The notes beneath the pieces were generated by a model. That model was not told the origin of the DNA. It made no database searches and saw only the letters and a program-made list of their open reading frames with translations. Positions 39,375-55,128 of a stretch of DNA of 64,000 bases are shown piece by piece. The stretch's first letter is position 1. Each line of letters opens with the position of its first letter. The position numbers and the translations under genes were made by a program. The DNA is from Phaeacidiphilus oryzae TH49 (lineage in GTDB: Bacteria > Actinomycetota > Actinomycetes > Streptomycetales > Streptomycetaceae): contig NZ_JQMQ01000005.1 of NCBI RefSeq assembly GCF_000744815.1, positions 2,612,055-2,676,054 on the forward strand, read 5' to 3'.

Positions 39375-40826
39375 TCAGCGCCCCAGGGGGGCGTCCAGCA
39401 GCGGACGGGCGCGTTCGAAGGCGGCTCCGAGCCGCTCCAGCGCCGCCTCGTCCCGGGGCAGCGGGTCCAGCAGCACCCCGCGCCGGGTGCCCCAGCGCCG
39501 GGCCACCTCGTCCGCGCGCTCCCCGGTGACCAGCGCCGCGGCCTGCGCCGCCGCGCCGAGCGCCACCAGCTCCTGCGCCTCCGGCACCAGCACCGGACGG
39601 CCGGAGAGCCGCCGCACGGTGTCCCGCCAGGCGCGGCCGCGGGCGCCGCCGCCGATCAGCATCAGCGGCTCGTCGGCCCCCTCGTCGCCCTGCACGTCGT
39701 GCAGCGCGGCCAGCAGCGCGTACGCGGCGCCGTCGTAGGCCGCCTGGAGGACCTGGCCGGGGGTGGTGTCATGGCGCAGCCCCGCCAACAGCCCCGAGGC
39801 GTACGGGAGGTTGGGGGTCCGCTCGCCGTCCAGGAAGGGCAGCAGGACGACCTCGCCGCCCGGCTCGACGTCCTGCCGGTCGCGGCCGAGCAGCGCGGCG
39901 ACCTTGTCCACGGCCAGGGTGCAGTTGAGGGTGCAGGCCAGCGGCAGCCAGTCGCCGAGGGCGTCGGCGAAGCCGGCCACGATCCCGCTGGGGTCGGCCG
40001 GCCGCCGGCTGGTGACCGCGTAGGCGGTGCCGGAGGTGCCGAGGCTGATCACCGGCGCGCCCGGGCGCAGCCCGAGGCCGACCGCCGCCGCCATGTTGTC
40101 CCCGGTCCCGGAGGCGACCAGGGCGCCGGCCCGCAGCGGAAGCCCCTGGCCCGCGATAGCGGCCGCGACCTCGCCCGCGGCCTTGCCGGGCTCGACCACC
40201 TCGGGCAGCGCCGAGGCGTCGAGGCCGATCAGTTCGAGCACCTCGTGGTCGTAGCCGGCCGGGCTCCACCAGCCGGTGCCGGAGGCGTCGCCGCGGTCGG
40301 TGACGCCCTGTCGGGAGCCGATCAGGCGGCTGGTCAGGTAGTCGTGCGGCAGCCGGACGTGGCGGGCGCGGTCGGCCGACTCGGGTTCGTTCTCGCGCAG
40401 CCAGGCCCAGCTGGTCGCGGTGAACGCGGCGGTCGGCACGCTGCCCACCCGGCCGGCCCACCAGTCCGCGCCCCGGGCCGCCACCAGCGCCTCGGCCTGC
40501 GGGGCCGAGCGGACGTCGTTCCAGAGGGTGGCCGGGCGGACCACCTCCCCGTCCGCATCCAGGGTGACCATCCCGTGCTGCTGGCCGCCGACCGAGACGG
40601 CCTCCGCCCGCTCGGCGCGGCCGGTCGCGGCCAGCGCCTCGCCGAGCGCCCGCCACCAGTCGCGGGGGTCGCTCTCCCGGGCCCCGCCGCTGCCGGAGAC
40701 GGTGTGCGCCGACCGGCCCTCGGCGACGATCTCGCCGGTCTCGACGTCCACCACGACCGCCTTGGTCGCCTGGGTGGAGCTGTCCACCCCCACCACGAGC
40801 GGGGCGTTTCCGACGCCGCTGACCAC
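39375..40826 (-). CDS. xylB: Xylulokinase
   Basis: A 483-residue FGGY kinase that phosphorylates D-xylulose to xylulose 5-phosphate. It has the N-terminal phosphate loop VGVDSSTQATKAVVVD, GGQQHGMVTLD, SGTGDNMAAAVGLGL, and C-terminal LMLIGGGARGRAWRDTV. GTG 40826 is preferred because GGAGG lies 8 bases upstream; GTG 40835 would sit on top of that SD. It is divergent from xylA and followed closely by the ROK regulator. Confidence 0.93.
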   Translation of the reverse strand: MVSGVGNAPLVVGVDSSTQATKAVVVDVETGEIVAEGRSAHTVSGSGGARESDPRDWWRALGEALAATGRAERAEAVSVGGQQHGMVTLDADGEVVRPATLWNDVRSAPQAEALVAARGADWWAGRVGSVPTAAFTATSWAWLRENEPESADRARHVRLPHDYLTSRLIGSRQGVTDRGDASGTGWWSPAGYDHEVLELIGLDASALPEVVEPGKAAGEVAAAIAGQGLPLRAGALVASGTGDNMAAAVGLGLRPGAPVISLGTSGTAYAVTSRRPADPSGIVAGFADALGDWLPLACTLNCTLAVDKVAALLGRDRQDVEPGGEVVLLPFLDGERTPNLPYASGLLAGLRHDTTPGQVLQAAYDGAAYALLAALHDVQGDEGADEPLMLIGGGARGRAWRDTVRRLSGRPVLVPEAQELVALGAAAQAAALVTGERADEVARRWGTRRGVLLDPLPRDEAALERLGAAFERARPLLDAPLGR

Positions 40827-40867
40827 CTGGACCACCTCCGTGCGTACCCCGGGACTTTCCCGATCGG

Positions 40868-40895
40868 CTTTCGCATACTAATTTGTTTTCTGCCC
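40868..40895. promoter_or_regulatory. xylA/xylB divergent promoter region
   Basis: The 103-base divergent gap contains an AT-rich core (CATACTAATTTGTTTTC, 40874-40890) unusual for this genome. Read toward xylB it offers TAGTAT as a -10. ROK repressors of xylose genes bind similar AT-rich sites, so this is the likely operator; exact half-sites are not clear. Confidence 0.5.
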
Positions 40896-40929
40896 TGACG
40901 AATACCCCCGAGGAACCGAGGAGCTCCCC

Positions 40930-42102
40930 GTGACGTACACCCCGACCCCCGACGACAAGTTCACCTTCGGCCTCTGGACCGTCGGCTGGCAGGGCCGCGA
41001 CCCGTTCGGCGACGCCACCCGCCCGGCCCTGGACCCGGTCGAGTCCGTGCAGCGCCTCTCCGAGCTGGGCGCCTACGGCGTGACCTTCCACGACGACGAC
41101 CTGATCCCGTTCGGCAGCGACGAGACGGAGCGCGAGGGCCACATCAAGCGCTTCCGCCAGGCGCTGGACGCCACCGGGATGAAGGTCCCGATGGCCACCA
41201 CCAACCTCTTCACCCACCCCGTCTTCAAGGACGGCGCCTTCACCTCCAACGACCGCGGGGTGCGCCGGTACGCGCTGCGCAAGACCATGCGCAACATCGA
41301 CCTGGCGGTCGAGCTCGGCGCCGAGACCTACGTCGCCTGGGGCGGCCGCGAGGGCGCCGAGTCCGGCGCCGCGAAGGACGTCCGGGACGCCCTCTCGCGG
41401 ATGAAGGAGGCCTTCGACTTCCTCGCCGAGTACTGCACCGAGCAGGGCTACGATCTGCGCTTCGCGATCGAGCCGAAGCCGAACGAGCCCCGCGGCGACA
41501 TCCTTCTCCCCACCGTCGGCCACGCCCTGGCCTTCATCGAGCGCCTGGAGCGCCCGGAGCTGTTCGGCGTCAACCCGGAGGTCGGCCACGAGCAGATGGC
41601 CGGGCTCAACTTCCCGCACGGGATCGCCCAGGCACTGTGGGCCGGCAAGCTGTTCCACATCGACCTCAACGGCCAGTCGGGCATCAAGTACGACCAGGAC
41701 CTGCGGTTCGGCGCGGGCGACCTCCGCCAGGCCTTCTGGCTGGTCGACCTGCTGGAGTCGGCGGGCTACGCCGGTCCCCGGCACTTCGACTTCAAGCCCC
41801 CGCGCACCGAGGACTTCGACGGCGTGTGGGAGTCGGCCGCCGGCTGCATGCGCAACTACCTGATCCTCAAGGACCGTGCGGCGGCCTTCCGCGCCGACCC
41901 GGCCGTCCAGCAGGCCCTCCGCGCCGCGAAGCTCGACGAGCTGGCCACCCCGACCCTCGCCGCCGGCGAGACCCCCGCCACGCTCCTCGCCGACCGCTCG
42001 GCCTTCGAGGACTACGACGTCGAGGCCGCCGCAAAGCGCGGCGCGGCCCTCGAGGCCCTCGACCAGCTCGCCCTCAACCACCTCCTGGGCGCCACCGCCT
42101 AA
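40930..42102 (+). CDS. xylA: Xylose isomerase
   Basis: A 390-residue class I xylose isomerase, a cytoplasmic tetramer converting D-xylose to D-xylulose. The catalytic His is in [12 protein letters not shown], Trp/Lys and metal ligands are in [24 protein letters not shown] and [10 protein letters not shown], and DFKPPRTED is near the end. Length and motifs match actinobacterial enzymes. Start GTG 40930 has GAGGAG 5 bases before it. It is transcribed divergently from xylB-ROK. Confidence 0.96.
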
Positions 42103-42154
42103 CCCACCACAGCCGCACCCCCGCCCCCGCCTGCAACGCCACCGGCACGCAAGA

Positions 42155-42385
42155 GGGGCGCGGGGCCTGCGCGCCCAGCCACCCCCGCCCACACCGTCAC
42201 CCCCGGCCCCGCACCGTGCGCCGCAGGCGCCCCCAAGGGGCGCGAGGAACTGCGCGACCAACCACCCACACCGCCGCACCCGGCAACGACGACCCCGTCA
42301 CACCCCGGCCCCGCCCCCCGCGCCGCAGGCGCAACCAGGGGCGCGAGGAACTGCGCGACCAGCCACCCACAGCCCCGCACCCGGC
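42155..42385. repeat. Tandem left arms of the intergenic repeat, copy 6
   Basis: Three left arms in the same orientation start near 42155 (variant GGGGCGCGGGGCCTGCGCGC), 42237 and 42338, each followed by CCCGGCAACG-like sequence and separated by 80-100 bases; no complementary right arm is present. It fills the 325-base gap between the convergent xylA and DD-carboxypeptidase genes. Confidence 0.75.
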
Positions 42386-42427
42386 AACGAGCACCCCCCT
42401 CGCACCCCGGCGCCGCCGCCGCGCCGC

Positions 42428-43372
42428 TCACGTGGAGCCCCCCGCCACCCGCCGCACCAGCTGGTCCGCCGCCGACAGCCCCGCGGCTATCAGGTCCGGC
42501 CCCTGCTGGCCGAGTACCACGCCGATGACCGTCACCTCCCGGCCGTCGGCTCCCCGCCACCGCGCCCGGAACATGAAGCTCCCCCCGGCCGCCGCATCCG
42601 ACCCGGTCTTCATCCCGAGGAAGCCGTCCCGCCCCAGCAGCGTGTCGGTGTTGCGCACCGACCCCGCCACCGGCAGGACGTAGTCGCGCGTGGCCATCAT
42701 CGCCGCCAGCGTCGGATCGCCGGCCGCCGTCTCCGCCAGGCGCAGCTGGTCGAGCGCGGTCGACACCGTCCCCGCGTCGTACCCGCTCGGGTCGGTGTAG
42801 GTGGTCCGGGAGATTCCCAGTGCCTTCGCCGTCGCGTTCATCTCGGCGACGAACGAGGCCTCACTGCCCGCGACCTGCCGGGCGACCAGCGCCGCGATGT
42901 TGTTCGCGGACGGCAGCAGGACGGCCATCAGCGCGTCCCGCTCGGTCAGCCGCTCGCCGGCCAGAACCGCGACGACCGACTGGTCCTCCATCCGCCGCCG
43001 CTCGGTGTCCTCGACATCGCCCCGGCCGACGACGAACACCCGCCCGTCCTCCGTCCCCTCCAGCGGGTCGTGCTTCAGCACCAGATACGCGGTCATCACC
43101 TTCGCCACACTGGCGATCGGCACCGGACGCTGGTCCGGGCTCGCCGCCGGCCGCCCCCCGTCGATCGCATACGCCCCCTGCCCGCTCCGGGGCCAGCCGT
43201 CCGAGGAGAGCGGGGCGGCCGAACCGCCCTTCCCGCCGAGGACGTGGCCGGCCCCGACCAGCGCCCCGGCGATGAGGAGCAGCGCCAGAACCGCCCCGAG
43301 CAGCCTGCGATGGCGCCGACGCGCCCGGTACCGGGTCGGCGTCCCGTACGAGGTCTGAGGATCGATGGCCAT
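42428..43372 (-). CDS. Membrane-anchored D-alanyl-D-alanine carboxypeptidase
   Basis: A 314-residue penicillin-binding carboxypeptidase (S11 type). A basic N-terminus and a TM anchor (residues 24-46) precede the catalytic domain. The active-site triad motifs are S-V-A-K at about 88-91, S-A-N in LPSANNIAALV, and K-T-G in GMKTGSDAAAGG. It trims terminal D-Ala from peptidoglycan. ATG 43372 is supported by promoter geometry: the CGTAT element is 34 bases upstream, exactly as for the gene at 43455-44594. It belongs with the adjacent two-component genes in a presumed envelope module. Confidence 0.9.
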   Translation of the reverse strand: MAIDPQTSYGTPTRYRARRRHRRLLGAVLALLLIAGALVGAGHVLGGKGGSAAPLSSDGWPRSGQGAYAIDGGRPAASPDQRPVPIASVAKVMTAYLVLKHDPLEGTEDGRVFVVGRGDVEDTERRRMEDQSVVAVLAGERLTERDALMAVLLPSANNIAALVARQVAGSEASFVAEMNATAKALGISRTTYTDPSGYDAGTVSTALDQLRLAETAAGDPTLAAMMATRDYVLPVAGSVRNTDTLLGRDGFLGMKTGSDAAAGGSFMFRARWRGADGREVTVIGVVLGQQGPDLIAAGLSAADQLVRRVAGGST

Positions 43373-43405
43373 GCCGTCAGTCAAGGCCGCGCGGCGTTGT
43401 CAGCC

Positions 43406-43434
43406 CGTATGTGCTTTTCGATACACCGGCGATA
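43406..43434 (-). promoter_or_regulatory. OmpR-type direct repeat in the DD-carboxypeptidase promoter
   Basis: The plus strand reads CGTAT (43406-43410), 8 bases, CGATA (43419-43423), 6 bases, CGATA (43430-43434). The two CGATA elements have an 11-bp period, as bound by OmpR-family dimers. CGTAT, read as ATACG on the gene strand, is at -10 distance. Spacing and distance to the ATG are identical to those at 44628-44656. Confidence 0.6.
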
Positions 43435-43454
43435 GGCCCGCCCGCGGCCGGCCC

Positions 43455-44594
43455 TCACCACCCCAGCCGCGCCGTCACCGGCAGATGGTCGCTGCCGTTC
43501 GCCCCCAGCACCGCCGAGCTCTCCGCCCGCACCCCCCGCACCAGCACCTGATCGATCCGCGCGACCGGGAACCTGGCCGGCCAGGTGAAACCGAAGCCGT
43601 CCCCCGCCGTATCCTGCGCCGAGCGCAGCCCCGCCGCGGCGAGACCGGCCAGCGCGCGATCGCCGAAAGTCCCGTTGAGGTCCCCGAGAAGGACCGTCCG
43701 CCCACTCCGATCGGCGGCCAGGGCACCGTCCAGCGCCTCCACGCCGATGTCCCGCGAGGCCGTCGAGAAGCCCGCGAGCGGGTTGACCCGCACGGACCCG
43801 AGATGCGCCACGTACACCGTCAGCGGCCCGTGGGCGGTGGTCACCGTCGTGCGGAGGGCGCGGTTCGAGGGGAGCTTCTCGGCCGCCGTCTTCCTGGCCG
43901 CCAGCGGCCCGTAGTCCGTGACGTCGATCGTCCGGGTGCCCGACAGCGGCCGCTTGCTCCACACCCCGACCGTCCCCTCCACCGCGCGGTACGGGTACGC
44001 CTTCGCCAGCGCCCGCTCGTAGCCGCCGGTGGCCTGCGGGGTCAGCTCCACCAGCGCCAGCAGGTCCGCCCCGGAGCCGGCCAGGGCGCGGGCGGTGCCG
44101 GCCGGGTCGGGGTTGCCGGCGTCCACGTTCTCCTCGGCCACCGTGAAGTCCCCGCCCTGGTGGGACTTGTCGGCCAGCACGCCGCCGAACAGGCTCAGCC
44201 ACACCACCGCCGGCACCACCAGCGCGACCGCCGCCGTGGCGGAGCGCCGCAGCAGCGCGAGGAGCAGCAGTACCGGCACGAGCAGCCCGAACCACGGCAG
44301 GAAGGTCTCCACCAGGCTGCCGAGGTTCCCGGTCCCCCGGTTCGGAATCCAGCCGTGCAGCAGCAGGAGCAGCGCGAGCAGCAGCGCCCCCGCCGTGAGC
44401 ACCCGCCCGCGCCGCCAGGGCCCGCCGTCGCCTTCGCGCCCGCGCCCCCGCCCCCGCTCGCGCTCGCGCTCCCGCGCCGCGCGGGCGCCGGCGCCGGCGC
44501 CGGTCCCGGCGGCCGTGCTCCCCCTCGTCGTCCCGGCCGTCGTCGTGTCCTGCGGCGTACCCGCCGTCCGCTCCGTGAGCGGGGTGTCGTTCAT
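43455..44594 (-). CDS. Membrane-anchored endonuclease/exonuclease/phosphatase-family protein
   Basis: A 379-residue protein. The cytoplasmic N-terminus is highly charged (RERERERGRGRGRE), three TM helices lie at about 68-150, then an EEP domain outside the membrane. EEP catalytic motifs are present: EENVDAG, the glutamate in LLALVELTPQ, VAHLGSV, GDLNGTFGD, RIDQVLVRG and GSDHLP. This architecture fits an extracellular phosphodiesterase or lipid/teichoic-acid phosphatase better than a nuclease, but the substrate is unknown. ATG 44594 is supported by the shared promoter geometry with the DD-carboxypeptidase. Confidence 0.82.
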   Translation of the reverse strand: MNDTPLTERTAGTPQDTTTAGTTRGSTAAGTGAGAGARAARERERERGRGRGREGDGGPWRRGRVLTAGALLLALLLLLHGWIPNRGTGNLGSLVETFLPWFGLLVPVLLLLALLRRSATAAVALVVPAVVWLSLFGGVLADKSHQGGDFTVAEENVDAGNPDPAGTARALAGSGADLLALVELTPQATGGYERALAKAYPYRAVEGTVGVWSKRPLSGTRTIDVTDYGPLAARKTAAEKLPSNRALRTTVTTAHGPLTVYVAHLGSVRVNPLAGFSTASRDIGVEALDGALAADRSGRTVLLGDLNGTFGDRALAGLAAAGLRSAQDTAGDGFGFTWPARFPVARIDQVLVRGVRAESSAVLGANGSDHLPVTARLGW

Positions 44595-44627
44595 GCCGCC
44601 AGTCGACGGGGCGCGCTGTTGCGGGCG

Positions 44628-44656
44628 CGTATCGGGTTCTCGATACGCGGACGATA
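44628..44656. promoter_or_regulatory. OmpR-type direct repeat between the EEP gene and the response regulator
   Basis: The plus strand reads CGTAT (44628-44632), 8 bases, CGATA (44641-44645), 6 bases, CGATA (44652-44656): the same order and spacings as at 43406-43434. Distance from CGTAT to the EEP start is again 34 bases. The repeat is also 13 bases from the response-regulator -10, so it could serve both divergent genes. Confidence 0.6.
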
Positions 44657-44681
44657 TGTCCCGACTCGTAGCATCGGGAGT

Positions 44682-45377
44682 ATGCGTGTGCTGATCGTCG
44701 AGGACGAGCCCTATCTGGCGGAGGCCGTCCGCGACGGGCTGCGCCTGGAGGCGATCGCGGCGGACATCGCCGGCGACGGCGACACCGCGCTGGAGCTGCT
44801 CGGCGTCAACGCCTACGACATCGCCGTCCTGGACCGCGACATCCCCGGGCCGTCCGGCGACGAGGTCGCCGAGCGGATCGTCGCCTCCGGCAGCGGCATG
44901 CCCATCCTGATGCTCACCGCCGCCGACCGGCTGGACGACAAGGAGTCCGGCTTCGAGCTCGGCGCAGACGACTACCTCACCAAGCCCTTCGAGCTGCGGG
45001 AGCTCGTCCTCCGGCTGAGGGCGCTCGACCGCAGGCGGGCGCACAGCCGCCCGCCGGTGCGCGAGATCGCCGGCCTGCGGCTGGACCCGTTCCGCCGCGA
45101 GGTCTTCCGGGACGGCCGCTACGTCGCGCTGACCAGGAAGCAGTTCGCGGTGCTCGAGGTCCTGGTGGCCGCCGAGGGCGGGGTGGTCAGCGCCGAGGAG
45201 CTGCTGGAGCGGGCCTGGGACGAGAACGCCGACCCGTTCACCAACGCCGTCCGGATCACCGTCTCCGCGTTGCGGAAGCGACTCGGCGAGCCCTGGGTCA
45301 TCGCCACCGTTCCGGGCGTCGGCTACCGCATCGACGCCGAGGCGGGGGCCGGACAGGCCGGAGGAGACCGTGGATAG
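44682..45377 (+). CDS. OmpR/VanR-like response regulator
   Basis: A 231-residue response regulator. The receiver has the acidic pair E7-D8 and the phosphoacceptor D51 in AVLDRDIPGPSG, then T/K switch residues (LTAAD, TKPF). The C-terminal winged helix includes LTRKQFAVLEVLVAAEGGVVSAEELLERAWDE. ATG 44682 follows TAGCAT by 7 bases, a leaderless arrangement. The stop overlaps the kinase start by 8 bases. Its likely targets are genes with the CGATA 11-bp repeat: the DD-carboxypeptidase, the EEP protein and possibly ftsW or the membrane protein at 55 kb. Confidence 0.93.
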   Translation: MRVLIVEDEPYLAEAVRDGLRLEAIAADIAGDGDTALELLGVNAYDIAVLDRDIPGPSGDEVAERIVASGSGMPILMLTAADRLDDKESGFELGADDYLTKPFELRELVLRLRALDRRRAHSRPPVREIAGLRLDPFRREVFRDGRYVALTRKQFAVLEVLVAAEGGVVSAEELLERAWDENADPFTNAVRITVSALRKRLGEPWVIATVPGVGYRIDAEAGAGQAGGDRG

Positions 45378-46434
45378 AGCCCCGGGCCTGGGTGTCCGCC
45401 TGAAGTTCACCCTCAGCTACGCCGGATTCGTCATGCTGGCCGGCGCGTTCCTCCTCCTCGTGGTGTGGGCGTTCCTGGAGCGCGCCCGCCACGTCGGGCT
45501 GGTCTTCCTGCCCAGCTACCGGCTCGCCGTGCTGCGCGAGTTCGCCCCGATCGGGGTCCTGGTGCTGGCCTTTCTGCTGGCCTTCGGCCTCCTCGGCGGC
45601 TGGTTCCTGGCCGGCCGGATGCTCGCCCCGCTGAACCGCATCACCGAGGCCACCCGGCTGGCGGCGACCGGTTCCCTCGCCCACCGGATCGAACTGCCGG
45701 GCCGCCGGGACGAGTTCCGCGAGCTGGCCGACGCCTTCGACACCATGCTCGCCCGGCTGCAGGCGCACGTCGCCGAGCAGCGGAGGTTCGCGGCCAACGC
45801 CTCGCACGAACTCCGCACCCCGCTGGCAGTCTCCAAGAGCATCCTCGACCTGGCCCGCACCGATCCGGAGCGCCGCACAGGCGAGTTGATCGACCGGCTG
45901 CACGCCGTGAACACCCGGGCGATCGACCTCACCGAGGCGCTGCTCCTCCTCACCCGCGCCGAGCAGCGGACCTTCGACCGGGAGCGGGTCGACCTCTCCC
46001 TCCTCGCCGAGGAGGCGACGGAGACCCTCCTCCCCCTCGCGGAGAAGCACGGGGTCGCGATCCGGACCTCCGGGGAGTTCGCGCCCGCCCTCGGCTCACC
46101 CGCGCTGCTGCTCCAGCTGACCACGAACCTCGTCCACAACGCGATCGTCCACAACCTCGCCGAGGGCGGCACCGTGGCGGTGGCCACCGCCGTCCGCCCC
46201 GGCGGCGCCGTCCTCACCGTCGAGAACACCGGCGAGCGGCTCGACCCCCGGCTGGTCTCGACGCTCACCGAGCCGTTCCGCCGCGGCACCGACCGCATCC
46301 TCGGCGACCACGCCGGGGTCGGCCTCGGTCTGGCCATCGTCAAGAGCATCGCCGAGGCGCACGACGGGGAGCTCACGATCGCGCCCGGGCCGGCCGGCGG
46401 GCTCCGCGTCACGGTGCGGCTCCCCACCGGCTGA
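45370..46434 (+). CDS. Sensor histidine kinase partner of the 44.7-kb response regulator
   Basis: A 354-residue kinase with TM helices at about 17-36 and 60-82, a short external loop of some 25 residues, then HAMP (LAPLNRITEATRLAA). The H-box is ASHELRTP with H146, and the ATPase domain has NLVHNAIVHN, a G1-like VENTGERL, and GVGLGLAIVKSIA. The small sensor loop suggests sensing at or within the membrane. GTG 45370 has GGAGGA upstream and overlaps the regulator stop, so both are made stoichiometrically. Confidence 0.93.
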   Translation: MDRAPGLGVRLKFTLSYAGFVMLAGAFLLLVVWAFLERARHVGLVFLPSYRLAVLREFAPIGVLVLAFLLAFGLLGGWFLAGRMLAPLNRITEATRLAATGSLAHRIELPGRRDEFRELADAFDTMLARLQAHVAEQRRFAANASHELRTPLAVSKSILDLARTDPERRTGELIDRLHAVNTRAIDLTEALLLLTRAEQRTFDRERVDLSLLAEEATETLLPLAEKHGVAIRTSGEFAPALGSPALLLQLTTNLVHNAIVHNLAEGGTVAVATAVRPGGAVLTVENTGERLDPRLVSTLTEPFRRGTDRILGDHAGVGLGLAIVKSIAEAHDGELTIAPGPAGGLRVTVRLPTG

Positions 46435-46454
46435 CGGCGCGCCCGCCCGGCCCG

Positions 46455-47498
46455 CTACTCCTGCGCCTTGCCGGTGGTCACCCGGGCGATCATCAGCGCG
46501 CCCAGGATGATCCCGCCGTAGATCGCCTGGATCCAGAACGACGGCACCTGGGCCAGCGTCAGCATGTTGTTGACGACGCCCAGCAGCAGCACCCCGGTCA
46601 CGGCGCCGGTCATCGTCCCCTTGCCGCCGTCCATCGAGATCCCGCCGATCACCGCGGCCGCCATCACCGTGAAGATCATGTTCTGGCCCTGGTTGGCGTT
46701 GATCGCCCCGACGTACCCGGTCTGGATCAGCCCGCCCACCGCGGCCAGCACGCCCGCCGCCACGTACACGCCCAGGGTGATCCGGTCCACCCGGATCCCC
46801 GCCGCCCGGGCCGCCTCCGCGTTGCCGCCGATGGCGTAGAGCGAGCGCCCGACCCGGTGGTAACGGAGGAAGACCCCCGCCACCGCGAAGCAGACCGCGG
46901 CCAGCCACACCGACAGCGGGATCGTCAGGAAGGTGTCCGTGGCCAGCGCGAAGAAGCCGTTCTGCATCCCGAAGAGGGTCTTCCCCTTCGTCGCGCCGAC
47001 CAGCAGCCCGCGCAGCACGATCAGCATGGCCAGCGTGACGATGAAGGAGTTCAGCCGCAGCCGGACCGCCAGCACGCCGTTGAACGCCCCGATCAGCCCG
47101 CCGACCACCAGGATCGCCAGCAGCGCCAGAATGAACGGCCATCCGGTGCCCCAGCCGGCCTCCGAGGCGGGCAGCACCAGCAGCGCCCCGATCGCCGGCG
47201 CGATCCCGACCACCGACTCCAGCGACAGGTCGATCTTCCCCACGATCAGCACCAGCGCCTCCGCCAGCACCACCATCGCCAGCGCCGCCGACGACCCCAG
47301 AATCGAGATGATGTTGGCCTGGGTCAGGAACGACGAGTTGAGCACCGCCCCCAGCACCACCAGCACCACCAGGGCCGGCACCAGCGCCAACTCCCGTGCC
47401 CTGCGCAGCAGTACGCCCCTGGCCCCGCCCGGGACGGAGCCGGAGGCCTCCTCCGCGCCCGCCTGGGCGGTCGCCGTATCGGCCGCGGTGTCAGCCAC
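46455..47498 (-). CDS. Ribose-type ABC transporter permease
   Basis: A 347-residue RbsC/XylH-like permease with 8-10 TM helices. The family segment GGNAEAARAAGIRVDRI is present, as is the central ILVVGGLIGAFNGVLAVRLRLNSFIVTLA. GTG 47498 overlaps the ATPase stop by 8 bases. It is the last gene of the binding protein - ATPase - permease operon importing a monosaccharide or polyol (inference). Confidence 0.9.
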   Translation of the reverse strand: MADTAADTATAQAGAEEASGSVPGGARGVLLRRARELALVPALVVLVVLGAVLNSSFLTQANIISILGSSAALAMVVLAEALVLIVGKIDLSLESVVGIAPAIGALLVLPASEAGWGTGWPFILALLAILVVGGLIGAFNGVLAVRLRLNSFIVTLAMLIVLRGLLVGATKGKTLFGMQNGFFALATDTFLTIPLSVWLAAVCFAVAGVFLRYHRVGRSLYAIGGNAEAARAAGIRVDRITLGVYVAAGVLAAVGGLIQTGYVGAINANQGQNMIFTVMAAAVIGGISMDGGKGTMTGAVTGVLLLGVVNNMLTLAQVPSFWIQAIYGGIILGALMIARVTTGKAQE

Positions 47499-49023
47499 GG
47501 TCCACTCCTTCGATCGACGCGATCAGCTCGTGGTCGTTCCAGCCGGCCGTATGCTCGGCGACGACCTCCCCGTGGAAGAGCACCAGCACCCGGTCGCACC
47601 GCCGCAGGTCGTCCAGCTCGTCGGAGACCACGACGATCGCCGTGCCGTCCTCCCGCGCGGTGTCGATCCGCGCGAGGAGCGACTCCTTGGAGCGGACGTC
47701 CACCCCCGCGGTCGGGTTGATCAGCACCAGCAGCCGGGGGTCCGAGGCCAGCGCCCTGGCCATCACCACCTTCTGCTGGTTGCCGCCGGAGAGGTCGGAG
47801 ACGGGCTGGTCCGGCCCCTCGGTGCGGATGTCGAGCCGCCGGATCAGGTCGGCGGCGAAGGCCCGCTTGGCGCCCGTCCCCACCAGCCCGTACCGGCCCA
47901 GCCGCTCGGTGACCGTCATGGTCGCGTTGTCGCCGATCGACAGGCCGTTGACCAGCCCCTGCTGGTGCCGGTCGCGCGGCACGCAGCCGACGCCCGCGTC
48001 CAGATGCCGCCGCACGTCCCCGTACGGCAGCTCCCGGCCGTCCAGCACGGCCCTGCCGGCGGTCGGCCGGCGCAGCCCGACCAGCGACTCGGCCAGCTCG
48101 ATCTTCCCGCTGGCGCTGCTTCCGGCGAGGCCGACGACCTCGCCCCGGTGCACCGTCAGGTCGATCGGATCGAAGCCCTCGCCGGAGAACCCGGACAGTT
48201 CAAGGCGGGTCTCCGCCTCCGCCGCCGCGTCCCCGCGCCCGGCGACCTCGTCGGCCGCCCGCCGCTCCTCGGCGACGGCCTCCCCGGCCATCGCCTCCAC
48301 CAGGGCGGCCCGGGGCAGTTCGGCCACCGGCGCGGTGGTCACCCAGCGGGCGTCCCGCAGCACGGTGACGGTCTGGCAGACCTCGTACACCTCCTGGAGG
48401 TGGTGGGAGATGAAGAGGAAGGTCACCCCGGAGTCCTGGAGGGTCCGCATCCTGGCGAAGAGCCGCTCGATCTCCCGGTTGTCCAGCTGGGCGGTCGGCT
48501 CGTCCAGCACGATGAACCGCGCGCCCAGGCTCAACGCCCTTGCGATCTCGACGAGTTGGCGGTCCTCGACCTTGAGGTCGCCGGTCCTGGCGTCGGGATC
48601 GACGTGGACGTCCCAGGTCTCCAGCAGCTCCCGGGAGTCCGCCCGCAGCCTCCGCCAGCTGATCATGCCCCAGCGGTTGACCGGCTGGCGGTTGATGAAC
48701 AGGTTCTCCGCGACGGTGAGTTCGGGCACCACCGTGGAGCGCTGGTAGACGCAGGCCACCCGCTGCCGCCAGGCGTCCCGGTCGGAGAGCGCCGGCGCCG
48801 GCTCCCCGGAGAACCGCAGCTCGCCCGTGTCGGCGGGCTGGAGCCCGGTCAGGATCTGCACCAGGGTGGACTTCCCGGCGCCGTTCCGGCCGACCAGCGC
48901 GTGCGACTCGCCGGCCCGCACGGTCAGCCGGGCGTCGGCGAGCGCCAGCGTCGACCCGTACCGCTTGCTGACCCCGCTGGCCTCCACCAGTGGGGCCTCC
49001 GCCCGCGGTGCCTCCGCGCTCAT
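47491..49023 (-). CDS. Ribose-type ABC transporter ATPase with two nucleotide-binding domains
   Basis: A 510-residue tandem ABC ATPase (RbsA-like). Domain 1 has Walker A GRNGAGKST, Walker B FIVLDEPTAQLD and signature KVEDRQLVEIARAL. Domain 2 has a degenerate Walker A (SSASGKIEL), signature LSGGNQQKV and LLVLINPTAGVD, the usual asymmetry of this family. A linker rich in Ala/Glu/Arg joins the halves. ATG 49023 is 8 bases after the binding-protein stop; an in-frame GTG 49035 overlaps it as GTGA. Confidence 0.9.
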   Translation of the reverse strand: MSAEAPRAEAPLVEASGVSKRYGSTLALADARLTVRAGESHALVGRNGAGKSTLVQILTGLQPADTGELRFSGEPAPALSDRDAWRQRVACVYQRSTVVPELTVAENLFINRQPVNRWGMISWRRLRADSRELLETWDVHVDPDARTGDLKVEDRQLVEIARALSLGARFIVLDEPTAQLDNREIERLFARMRTLQDSGVTFLFISHHLQEVYEVCQTVTVLRDARWVTTAPVAELPRAALVEAMAGEAVAEERRAADEVAGRGDAAAEAETRLELSGFSGEGFDPIDLTVHRGEVVGLAGSSASGKIELAESLVGLRRPTAGRAVLDGRELPYGDVRRHLDAGVGCVPRDRHQQGLVNGLSIGDNATMTVTERLGRYGLVGTGAKRAFAADLIRRLDIRTEGPDQPVSDLSGGNQQKVVMARALASDPRLLVLINPTAGVDVRSKESLLARIDTAREDGTAIVVVSDELDDLRRCDRVLVLFHGEVVAEHTAGWNDHELIASIEGVDRG

Positions 49024-49031
49024 CGCCGCAC

Positions 49032-50129
49032 TCACTGCGACTTGAGGGTGTTGCCCCACAGCGCGGGGTCGTCGACGTTGGACTTGGTCACCAGCGGGGC
49101 CGGCAGCTGGTCCTCCAGGTCGCCGTTGGGCAGCTTGACGATGGTGCTGCCGTGGTCGGTCGGGCCGGGCTTGAAGGTCTTGCCCTGCATCGCGGCCTGG
49201 ATGTAGTACATCGCCCACTTCGCGTACAGGTCGGCCGGCTGCGAGACGGTTGCGTCGATCTGGCCGGACCGGATCGCCTGGAACTCCTGCGGGATGCCGT
49301 CGTTGGAGATGATCGTGATGTGCCCGGCCTGCCCGGCCGGCTTCAGCAGGCCCTTGGTCTTCAGGGTCTCCAGCGTCGGCGCCAGGTACACCCCGCCGGC
49401 CTGCATGTAGATGCCCTTGACGTCCGGGTTGGCGTTGAGCACCGCGGCGAGCCCGGAGGCCGCCTTGTCCGACTGCCAGGCCGCGGGCACCTCCAGCACC
49501 TTCAGCCCCGGGTACTTCTTCTTGACGCAGCTGTCGAAGGCCTCACTGCGGTCGCGCCCGTTCACCGAGGCCAGGTCGCCCTGGATCTGCACGACCTTCC
49601 CCGACTTCACATGCTGTCCGAGGTAGTCGCAGGCCTTGAGGCCGTACGCGACGTTGTCGGCCCGGACCACCATCGCGACCTTGCCCTTGTCCGGGGCGAC
49701 GTCCACGGCCACCACCGGGATGCCCTTGCGCTGGGCCTGGTCGAGCCCCGCGGCTATCGCGCTGCTGTCGATCGGGGCCACCACCAGGCCCTTCACGCTC
49801 TGGTTGGCCAGGTTGTTGATGTCGGTGATCTGCTGCGCCGGGTCGTTGTTGGAGTTGACCGTCGGCAGGATGGCGACGCCCTGCTTCTTCGCCATCTGCG
49901 GGACGTAGTTGTTGTACGCCTCCCAGAACGGCGAGGTCAGCATCGGCAGGTCGACGCCGACCTTGCCGGTGCCGCCGCTCTTGCCGCCGGAACCGCCCGC
50001 CGTGGCGTTCGTCGTCCCGCAGCCGGAGAGACCGGCGACCGCCAGGGCCGCGGCGGCCGCGACGGCGCCGAGGGTCACCCGAGCGCTGCCCCGTCCGGTT
50101 CTGCCGCCGCCCACTGTGCTGCGCACCAT
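49032..50129 (-). CDS. Sugar-binding lipoprotein of the ribose-type importer
   Basis: A 365-residue periplasmic-binding-protein-like lipoprotein. The signal peptide ends with the lipobox LSGC at about residue 37, a Gly/Ser-rich linker follows, then a Peripla_BP_4 fold (LPMLTSPFWEAYNNYVPQMAKK, GLVVAPIDSSAI, GIPVVAVDVAP). The ligand is not determined; hexoses, pentoses or polyols are possible. The ATG has GAGGAG 8 bases upstream. The divergent GntR gene at 50317 is the likely regulator. Confidence 0.9.
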   Translation of the reverse strand: MVRSTVGGGRTGRGSARVTLGAVAAAAALAVAGLSGCGTTNATAGGSGGKSGGTGKVGVDLPMLTSPFWEAYNNYVPQMAKKQGVAILPTVNSNNDPAQQITDINNLANQSVKGLVVAPIDSSAIAAGLDQAQRKGIPVVAVDVAPDKGKVAMVVRADNVAYGLKACDYLGQHVKSGKVVQIQGDLASVNGRDRSEAFDSCVKKKYPGLKVLEVPAAWQSDKAASGLAAVLNANPDVKGIYMQAGGVYLAPTLETLKTKGLLKPAGQAGHITIISNDGIPQEFQAIRSGQIDATVSQPADLYAKWAMYYIQAAMQGKTFKPGPTDHGSTIVKLPNGDLEDQLPAPLVTKSNVDDPALWGNTLKSQ

Positions 50130-53562: not shown

Positions 53563-54984
53563 CTAGGAGCCCTGGTTCTCCGCCATATGGGCCCGGATCT
53601 CCGCGGTGGAGACGGTCATCGTCTCCGCCGGGTCCGGGGCCGGCTCCAGCTCGATCTTCCCTGCGGCGTCGCTGACCTTGATCATCAAGGCCACCACCAG
53701 CCAGTTGGCCACCGTCGCCGATCCACCGTAGGCGAGGAACGGCAGCGCCTTCCCGGTCTCCGGGATCAGCCCGATGACGCCGCCGGCCACCACGAACACC
53801 TGCAGCACCAGCACCACCGCGAGGCCGGTGCCGAGCAGCTTCCCGAACGGGTCGTTGAGGGTGATCGCGGACTTCCAGCTCCGCTGCGCCAGCAGGAAGT
53901 ACAGCAGCAGCATGGCCATCAGCCCGCAGGTGCCGAGCTCCTCGCCGAAGGCGCCGAGGATCCAGTCGCTGCGTCCGGCGAAGCCGATCAGCCAGGGTTG
54001 GCCCTTGCCGAGCCCGGTGCCGAGGAATCCGCCGTGGCCGAGGGCGAAGAGCGCCTGCGCGGCCTGGTCCGAGGTCACGTTGGAGCCGTGCCGGAACACG
54101 TCCATCGGATGCAGCCAGGCCGTGACGCGCTGGCCCACGTGCGAGGAGGTGGCACCGACCGCGCCTCCGCCGACGACCGCCAGCACCAGGCCGATGAGCA
54201 CCCATCCGGTGCGTTCGGTGGCCACGTACAGCATCACGATGAAGATGCCGAAGATGATCAGCGAGGTACCGAGGTCGACCTCGAAGATCAGGATCAGCAG
54301 CGAGATCGCCCAGATCACCAGCAGCGGGCCGAGGTCGCGCATCCGCGGGAAGCTGATGCCCCAGACCTTCTTGCCGACCAGCGCCAGGGCGTCCCGGTTG
54401 GCCATCAGATAGCTGGCGAAGAAGACGATGATGCCGATCTTGGTGAACTCGTCGGGTTCGAAGCTCAGCGGGCCGATCATGATCCACCGCTTGGCGCCGT
54501 AGATCCCCGGGAAGAACGCCGGGGCCATCTGCAGCACCAGCGAGACCGCCATCGTGACGTAGGTGTAGCGCTGCAGCGAGCGGTGGTGCTTGAGGAAGAC
54601 GATCACGCCGACGAAGAGCACCGCCGCGATGACCGTCCACTGCATCTGGCTGCCCGCCTCGGGCGGCGCCTCCTGCGTCCCGGCCCAGAACTTCGCGTAC
54701 GAGCTGTCCAGGCGATGGATCATCATCAGCCCGAGCCCGCTCAGCAGCACCGCGATCGGCAGGATCAGGGGATCCGCGTACTTGGCCCACTTCCGCACCG
54801 CGAGGTGCATCAGCAGCGCCAGAGCGCCCAGGCCGAGACCGGTCGTCGCGAACCCGCCCCCCAGCGAGCCGTTCAGCGCCAACTCCGCGTCGGCCTCCGC
54901 GAACAGCGAGGCCAGCACGGCCACGACGACCAGCACCAGCTCCGTGTTCCTGCGGCGCGTGGCGTCCTCCAACGCTCTCTCCAC
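53563..54984 (-). CDS. FtsW/RodA/SpoVE-family glycan polymerase
   Basis: A 473-residue SEDS-family protein with 10 or more TM helices that polymerises lipid II during division or elongation. Family motifs are ANRDAL, GTSLIIFGIFIVMLYVATER, GHGGFLGTGLGKGQP, and the catalytic loop GAFGEELGTCG with PFLAYGGSATVANW near the end. GTG 54984 (VERALEDATRRRNTEL) gives the usual length; a farther in-frame GTG at 55068 would add an unusual 28-residue leader. No PBP gene is adjacent. An 11-bp CGATA direct repeat lies upstream. Confidence 0.9.
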   Translation of the reverse strand: MERALEDATRRRNTELVLVVVAVLASLFAEADAELALNGSLGGGFATTGLGLGALALLMHLAVRKWAKYADPLILPIAVLLSGLGLMMIHRLDSSYAKFWAGTQEAPPEAGSQMQWTVIAAVLFVGVIVFLKHHRSLQRYTYVTMAVSLVLQMAPAFFPGIYGAKRWIMIGPLSFEPDEFTKIGIIVFFASYLMANRDALALVGKKVWGISFPRMRDLGPLLVIWAISLLILIFEVDLGTSLIIFGIFIVMLYVATERTGWVLIGLVLAVVGGGAVGATSSHVGQRVTAWLHPMDVFRHGSNVTSDQAAQALFALGHGGFLGTGLGKGQPWLIGFAGRSDWILGAFGEELGTCGLMAMLLLYFLLAQRSWKSAITLNDPFGKLLGTGLAVVLVLQVFVVAGGVIGLIPETGKALPFLAYGGSATVANWLVVALMIKVSDAAGKIELEPAPDPAETMTVSTAEIRAHMAENQGS

Positions 54985-55112
54985 CTCGATCGCTCGGTCC
55001 GCCCTGTCGGCCGGTCGGACCCCGCATTCTTGCAGCTTCCGGCAGGCCGCCGACCAACCTACCCCCACCGCCTTCTTACCAGCCGCCCCTACGATGCCGC
55101 CCGCCCTCGGCT

Positions 55113-55128
55113 CGATACGTTCGCGATA
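55113..55128. promoter_or_regulatory. Third CGATA 11-bp direct repeat, between ftsW and a membrane protein gene
   Basis: CGATA at 55113-55117 and 55124-55128 repeats with the 11-bp period seen at 43419 and 44641, with the same flanking TCGATAC. The additional CGTAT element found at the other two sites is missing. It lies between the divergent ftsW-type gene and the gene at 55218 and could serve either. Confidence 0.45.

Follow-up and report, generated by a model that had tools for sequence, protein, structure and literature searches.

Two sites in a 64,000-nucleotide stretch of the Phaeacidiphilus oryzae TH49 genome (hereafter, the window) are very probably operators for VanR, the response regulator encoded beside them, through which a VanS-like kinase and VanR would activate leaderless transcription of a vanJ-like gene and the gene for an S11 D,D-carboxypeptidase, with no D-Ala-D-Lac pathway in the regulon. 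This joint reading comes from sequence comparison: it builds on a motif that is rare, that lies at a fixed spacing from start codons and that is linked to vanR and other van genes, and on the identities of the encoded proteins.

A shared motif upstream of two genes

Both sites read TATCG-N6-TATCG-N8-ATACG on the minus strand of the window, which is the gene strand. The predicted operator of the carboxypeptidase gene, TATCGCCGGTGTATCGAAAAGCACATACG, runs from 43434 to 43406 (TATCG at 43434-43430 and 43423-43419, ATACG at 43410-43406), and that of the vanJ/vanR interval, TATCGTCCGCGTATCGAGAACCCGATACG, runs from 44656 to 44628 (TATCG at 44656-44652 and 44645-44641, ATACG at 44632-44628). At both sites, the TATCG repeats are spaced 11 bp apart, and 33 bases separate the motif from an ATG, at 43372 and 44594, respectively. 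The initial annotation had described two identical sites with an 11-bp repeat of the OmpR-family type and had proposed scanning this and related genomes for them. The scan confirmed the pair as standing far above chance: these are the only two exact copies of the full motif in the 7.8-Mb genome, and a backwards version of it, used as a control, had no match in any listed genome of the order or in the class samples. The exact motif was present in 104 of the 294 genomes of the order and in 47 of the 395 genomes of a class-wide sample, and it recurs at van genes elsewhere. The OmpR-family assignment is supported.

The TATCG-N6-TATCG repeat, taken without the third element, occurs four times in the whole genome. 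A third instance in the window, at 55113-55128 on the minus strand, precedes an FtsW/RodA-like open reading frame (53563-55068) by about 45 bp. We considered it as a further regulon member and rejected it, as it has neither an ATACG in the right position nor a -10-like element; since ATACG is missing from its proper place, this repeat is probably there by chance.

Outside the order, every locus that we read (24 of 24) had the motif either next to a relative of vanR or preceding vanY, vanH or vanK. We also tallied the genes downstream of 133 motif sites, drawn from 120 fetched regions plus the window, and these most often encoded VanZ-like proteins (45), VanJ (27), VanY (20), VanK (12) and VanH (11), with the S11 gene of the window also among them. 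At a locus from another family (L291, site at 1501), the operator divergent from vanR precedes the gene for a small exported protein. The similar leaders of the two window genes might suggest that the sites are simply a recent, functionless promoter duplication; however, the same layout is retained ahead of genes unrelated to one another in different families of the class, and we regard this explanation as scarcely credible. The small envelope regulon envisaged by the initial annotation is upheld as such, although it is not private to this genome, being of the van (glycopeptide-resistance) type, which is shared across the class.

The adjacent regulator and its link to the motif

The gene at 44682..45377 on the plus strand encodes an OmpR/PhoB-type response regulator with receiver and winged-helix domains (PF00072, PF00486). 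Its nearest PDB chain is 7lz9, the S. coelicolor VanR, with a full-length alignment scoring 445 bits in which the C-terminal helix region is identical and both the phospho-acceptor Asp and the DNA-recognition region are retained. It is about 92% identical to the VanR of an S. coelicolor-like cluster, L202. Against NF033118 (VanR-O), it scores 464.7 bits, under the NCBIfam cut-off of 505, which is a naming threshold for one allele group; we therefore name the protein VanR by its S. coelicolor orthology and withhold the VanR-O label. Judged by these alignments, the window regulator is the ortholog of S. coelicolor VanR.

The adjoining gene (45370..46434, plus strand, GTG start) encodes a histidine kinase with a short extracytoplasmic loop and HAMP, HisKA and HATPase_c domains, which is 69.5% identical to the VanS of L202. 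Because its score against NF033094 (VanS-O), 455.5 bits, is under the cut-off of 720, we call it VanS-like. The suggestion in the initial annotation that the neighboring two-component pair is the likely regulator is accordingly supported, and it can be sharpened to a VanR ortholog and a VanS-like kinase.

L202 carries the exact published start-region sequences of S. coelicolor vanH, vanK and vanR, and it holds the two primers that yield the published vanH promoter amplicon of 539 bp (521 bp without the primer tails); a 19-mer of the vanH primer also has matches in three Streptomyces other than S. coelicolor. The full motif occurs only three times in the L202 genome, before vanJ, vanK and vanH, and these are genes that are vancomycin-induced in S. 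coelicolor (PMC7947799).

Across the order, a VanR of at least 86% identity is encoded in 97 of the 104 motif-bearing genomes, a co-occurrence with a Fisher odds ratio of 59 (p = 9e-38, from related genomes that are not independent events), and vanR lies within 10 kb of 94 of the 128 listed motif sites. VanR is found without the exact motif in 36 genomes of the order; those that we read mostly contain a copy that differs at one or two positions, and a few contain none within three mismatches. With VanR homologues of 73 to 77% identity, the TATCG repeat is mostly kept and the third element is changed. One could argue that the motif belongs to a different OmpR-family regulator and that the neighboring VanR is incidental, as the genome itself encodes two VanR paralogs (61% and 58% identical) along with dozens of further regulators, and a match with three mismatches lies near one of the paralogs. 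Exact sites nonetheless track VanR, both in the genomes that contain them and in their closeness to the gene, the distance from the operator TATCG to the vanR ATG is fixed at 24 to 25 bp in 48 loci, and the linkage to vanR and van genes holds across the class. We therefore consider it very improbable that another regulator owns the motif.

We propose the motif, as a strong prediction from these comparisons, as the recognition sequence of S. coelicolor VanR. It would fill a gap, since a 2021 structural study stated that the DNA sequence recognized by this protein was not known (PMC8329863), and we found no later definition of an actinobacterial VanR operator in the open literature, which omits most subscription journals. 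The motif could be used to find van regulons in any actinobacterial genome and to pick up members that would not be expected, for instance the S11 carboxypeptidase of the window or the exported protein of L291.

Promoter layout

In S. coelicolor, VanS phosphorylates VanR, and phospho-VanR activates the van promoters (PMC6001138, PMC9739842). For the window, we infer binding and activation as follows: the VanS-like kinase would sense a cell-wall-targeting antibiotic and phosphorylate VanR, and phospho-VanR would bind head to tail on the 11-bp TATCG repeat, which lies roughly 62 to 47 bp before the start codon, and activate leaderless transcription of vanJ and the S11 gene. The operator at 44628-44656 would also cover the -35 region of the vanR promoter, which points the opposite way, and autoregulation of vanR is therefore probable.

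The initial annotation had placed ATACG at -10 distance, and this is probably incorrect, as the homologous vanH, vanK and vanR genes of S. coelicolor, which share the layout, are given as leaderless (PMC3160421, citing Hong et al. 2004). If the window genes start likewise, ATACG falls at about -38 to -34, and it is therefore probably near the -35 region and not the -10 element. Counted from the start codon, the repeats span -62 to -47, ATACG -38 to -34 and a T-N4-T element -12 to -7, so that in the promoter alignment the last of these ends 6 nt before the ATG. The carboxypeptidase gene has TTGACT here (43379..43384, minus strand), a -10-like element that is kept across motif-bearing promoters and has the same letters in the reportedly leaderless S. 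coelicolor vanK; by the same alignment, vanJ has TCGACT (44601..44606, minus strand). The divergent vanR has a conserved TAGCAT (44669..44674, plus strand), and with its S. coelicolor counterpart listed as leaderless, window vanR is probably leaderless as well.

The alternative is that ATACG is indeed the -10 element and that transcripts begin about 25 nt before the start codon. An S. coelicolor vanH reporter whose promoter fragment stops 8 nt past ATACG, an endpoint that we verified on the L202 sequence, was still induced about 20-fold (PMC9779433); this fragment ends upstream of the reported start and fits the leaderless model poorly. Against this stand the listed leaderless starts, the T-N4-T element just before the ATG and the spacing from motif to start codon, which is 33 nt in 94 of the 133 sites and 34 nt in 13, the rest including sites at which the automatic choice miscalled the start codon. 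On balance, we think a -10 role for ATACG unlikely and favor leaderless transcription. A possible hairpin around TTGACT in the leader was rejected, as pairing of its flanks was no higher than in permuted controls. We also observed a CAAC 6 nt after ATACG (43396-43399 and 44618-44621), which is nearly invariant across homologous promoters.

A predicted van-type regulon without vanHAX

The VanJ-like membrane protein (43455..44594, minus strand) has an EEP domain (PF03372), covers nearly the whole of the vanJ model NF000373 at 425.7 bits and is 64.8% identical to the VanJ of L202; since its score is below the cut-off of 700, we name it VanJ-like, which refines the EEP gene that the initial annotation had placed beside the two-component pair. 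A VanJ paralog elsewhere in the genome (56% identity) lacks the motif within three mismatches.

The carboxypeptidase (42428..43372, minus strand) is a membrane-anchored serine enzyme with SVAK, SAN and KTG motifs, and its domain is PF00768 S11 (93.6 bits), not the M15 of VanY. Its gene occupies the position held by VanY in other genomes, and, as its sequence stands, the enzyme is at most a functional analogue of VanY. Relatives of 52 to 59% identity are encoded in seven genomes from a second family; each has the motif within two mismatches, and some adjoin vanR. An S11 paralog (43%) elsewhere in the window's own genome lacks the motif within three. We detected no VanX dipeptidase in the genome (no PF01427 matches), and the best match to VanH was only 39% identical; we therefore describe the regulon as a VanRS one that lacks the D-Ala-D-Lac pathway. 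As to enzymatic roles, we infer that the carboxypeptidase would act like VanY, cleaving off the terminal D-Ala that glycopeptides target, and that VanJ would add protection of the teicoplanin type.

The van locus is embedded in an apparent xylose-type sugar cluster (39375-50129, judged from translations only), with xylulokinase- and xylose isomerase-like open reading frames on one flank and a sugar transporter of the ABC type on the other. Repeated units resembling GGGGCGCGAGGAACTGCGCGACC lie at 42220-42370, in the intergenic stretch that follows the xylose isomerase-like gene.

The loop of the window VanS resembles those of a few vanJ-locus kinases and differs from the L202 VanS loop, so its inducer may be something other than vancomycin. 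VanS extracytoplasmic loops at loci L093-L263 form several sequence classes that partly match the neighboring genes, with a 36-residue stretch accompanying VanZ-like genes and a 37-residue stretch accompanying several vanH loci.

The divergent sensor loop and the absence of vanHAX would also suit a regulon for general wall remodeling rather than antibiotic resistance, and S11 enzymes are usually housekeeping. Elsewhere, however, dedicated resistance genes share the operator and the regulator, and we give this possibility a minor share, favoring a role in resistance. More speculatively, actinobacterial VanR may work with a single, almost constant operator and leaderless promoter, a frame within which sensor loops and resistance genes are exchanged, and the window may hold a vanHAX-free, serine-carboxypeptidase version with a sensor for a non-vancomycin ligand; we hold this wider scheme as a tentative idea, at somewhat less than even chances.

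Among known systems, PHO-box-type OmpR/PhoB operators are likewise built of 11-bp direct repeats, although their sequence differs and the repeat in the window lies upstream of the -35 region. The VanY-D of enterococci is a penicillin-binding-protein-type carboxypeptidase in a van operon; it differs in host and in regulator type, and the window S11 enzyme scores 31 bits against its model (NF000471), far under the cut-off of 625. The actinobacterial vanYRS-type loci likewise pair VanRS with a D,D-carboxypeptidase and lack vanHAX (PMC8698665), but VanY there is an M15 enzyme, whereas the window has a serine S11; that survey used one VanY query, a VanY protein, and takes up neither S11 enzymes nor VanR operators. 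From the S. coelicolor van cluster (vanRS-J-K-HAX), the window differs in the sensor loop of VanS and in having an S11 carboxypeptidase in a genome without vanX or a close vanH. The two share, with L202 as the reference, VanR (92% identity), VanS (70%) and VanJ (65%), together with the divergent vanR-vanJ arrangement, the operator and its spacing.
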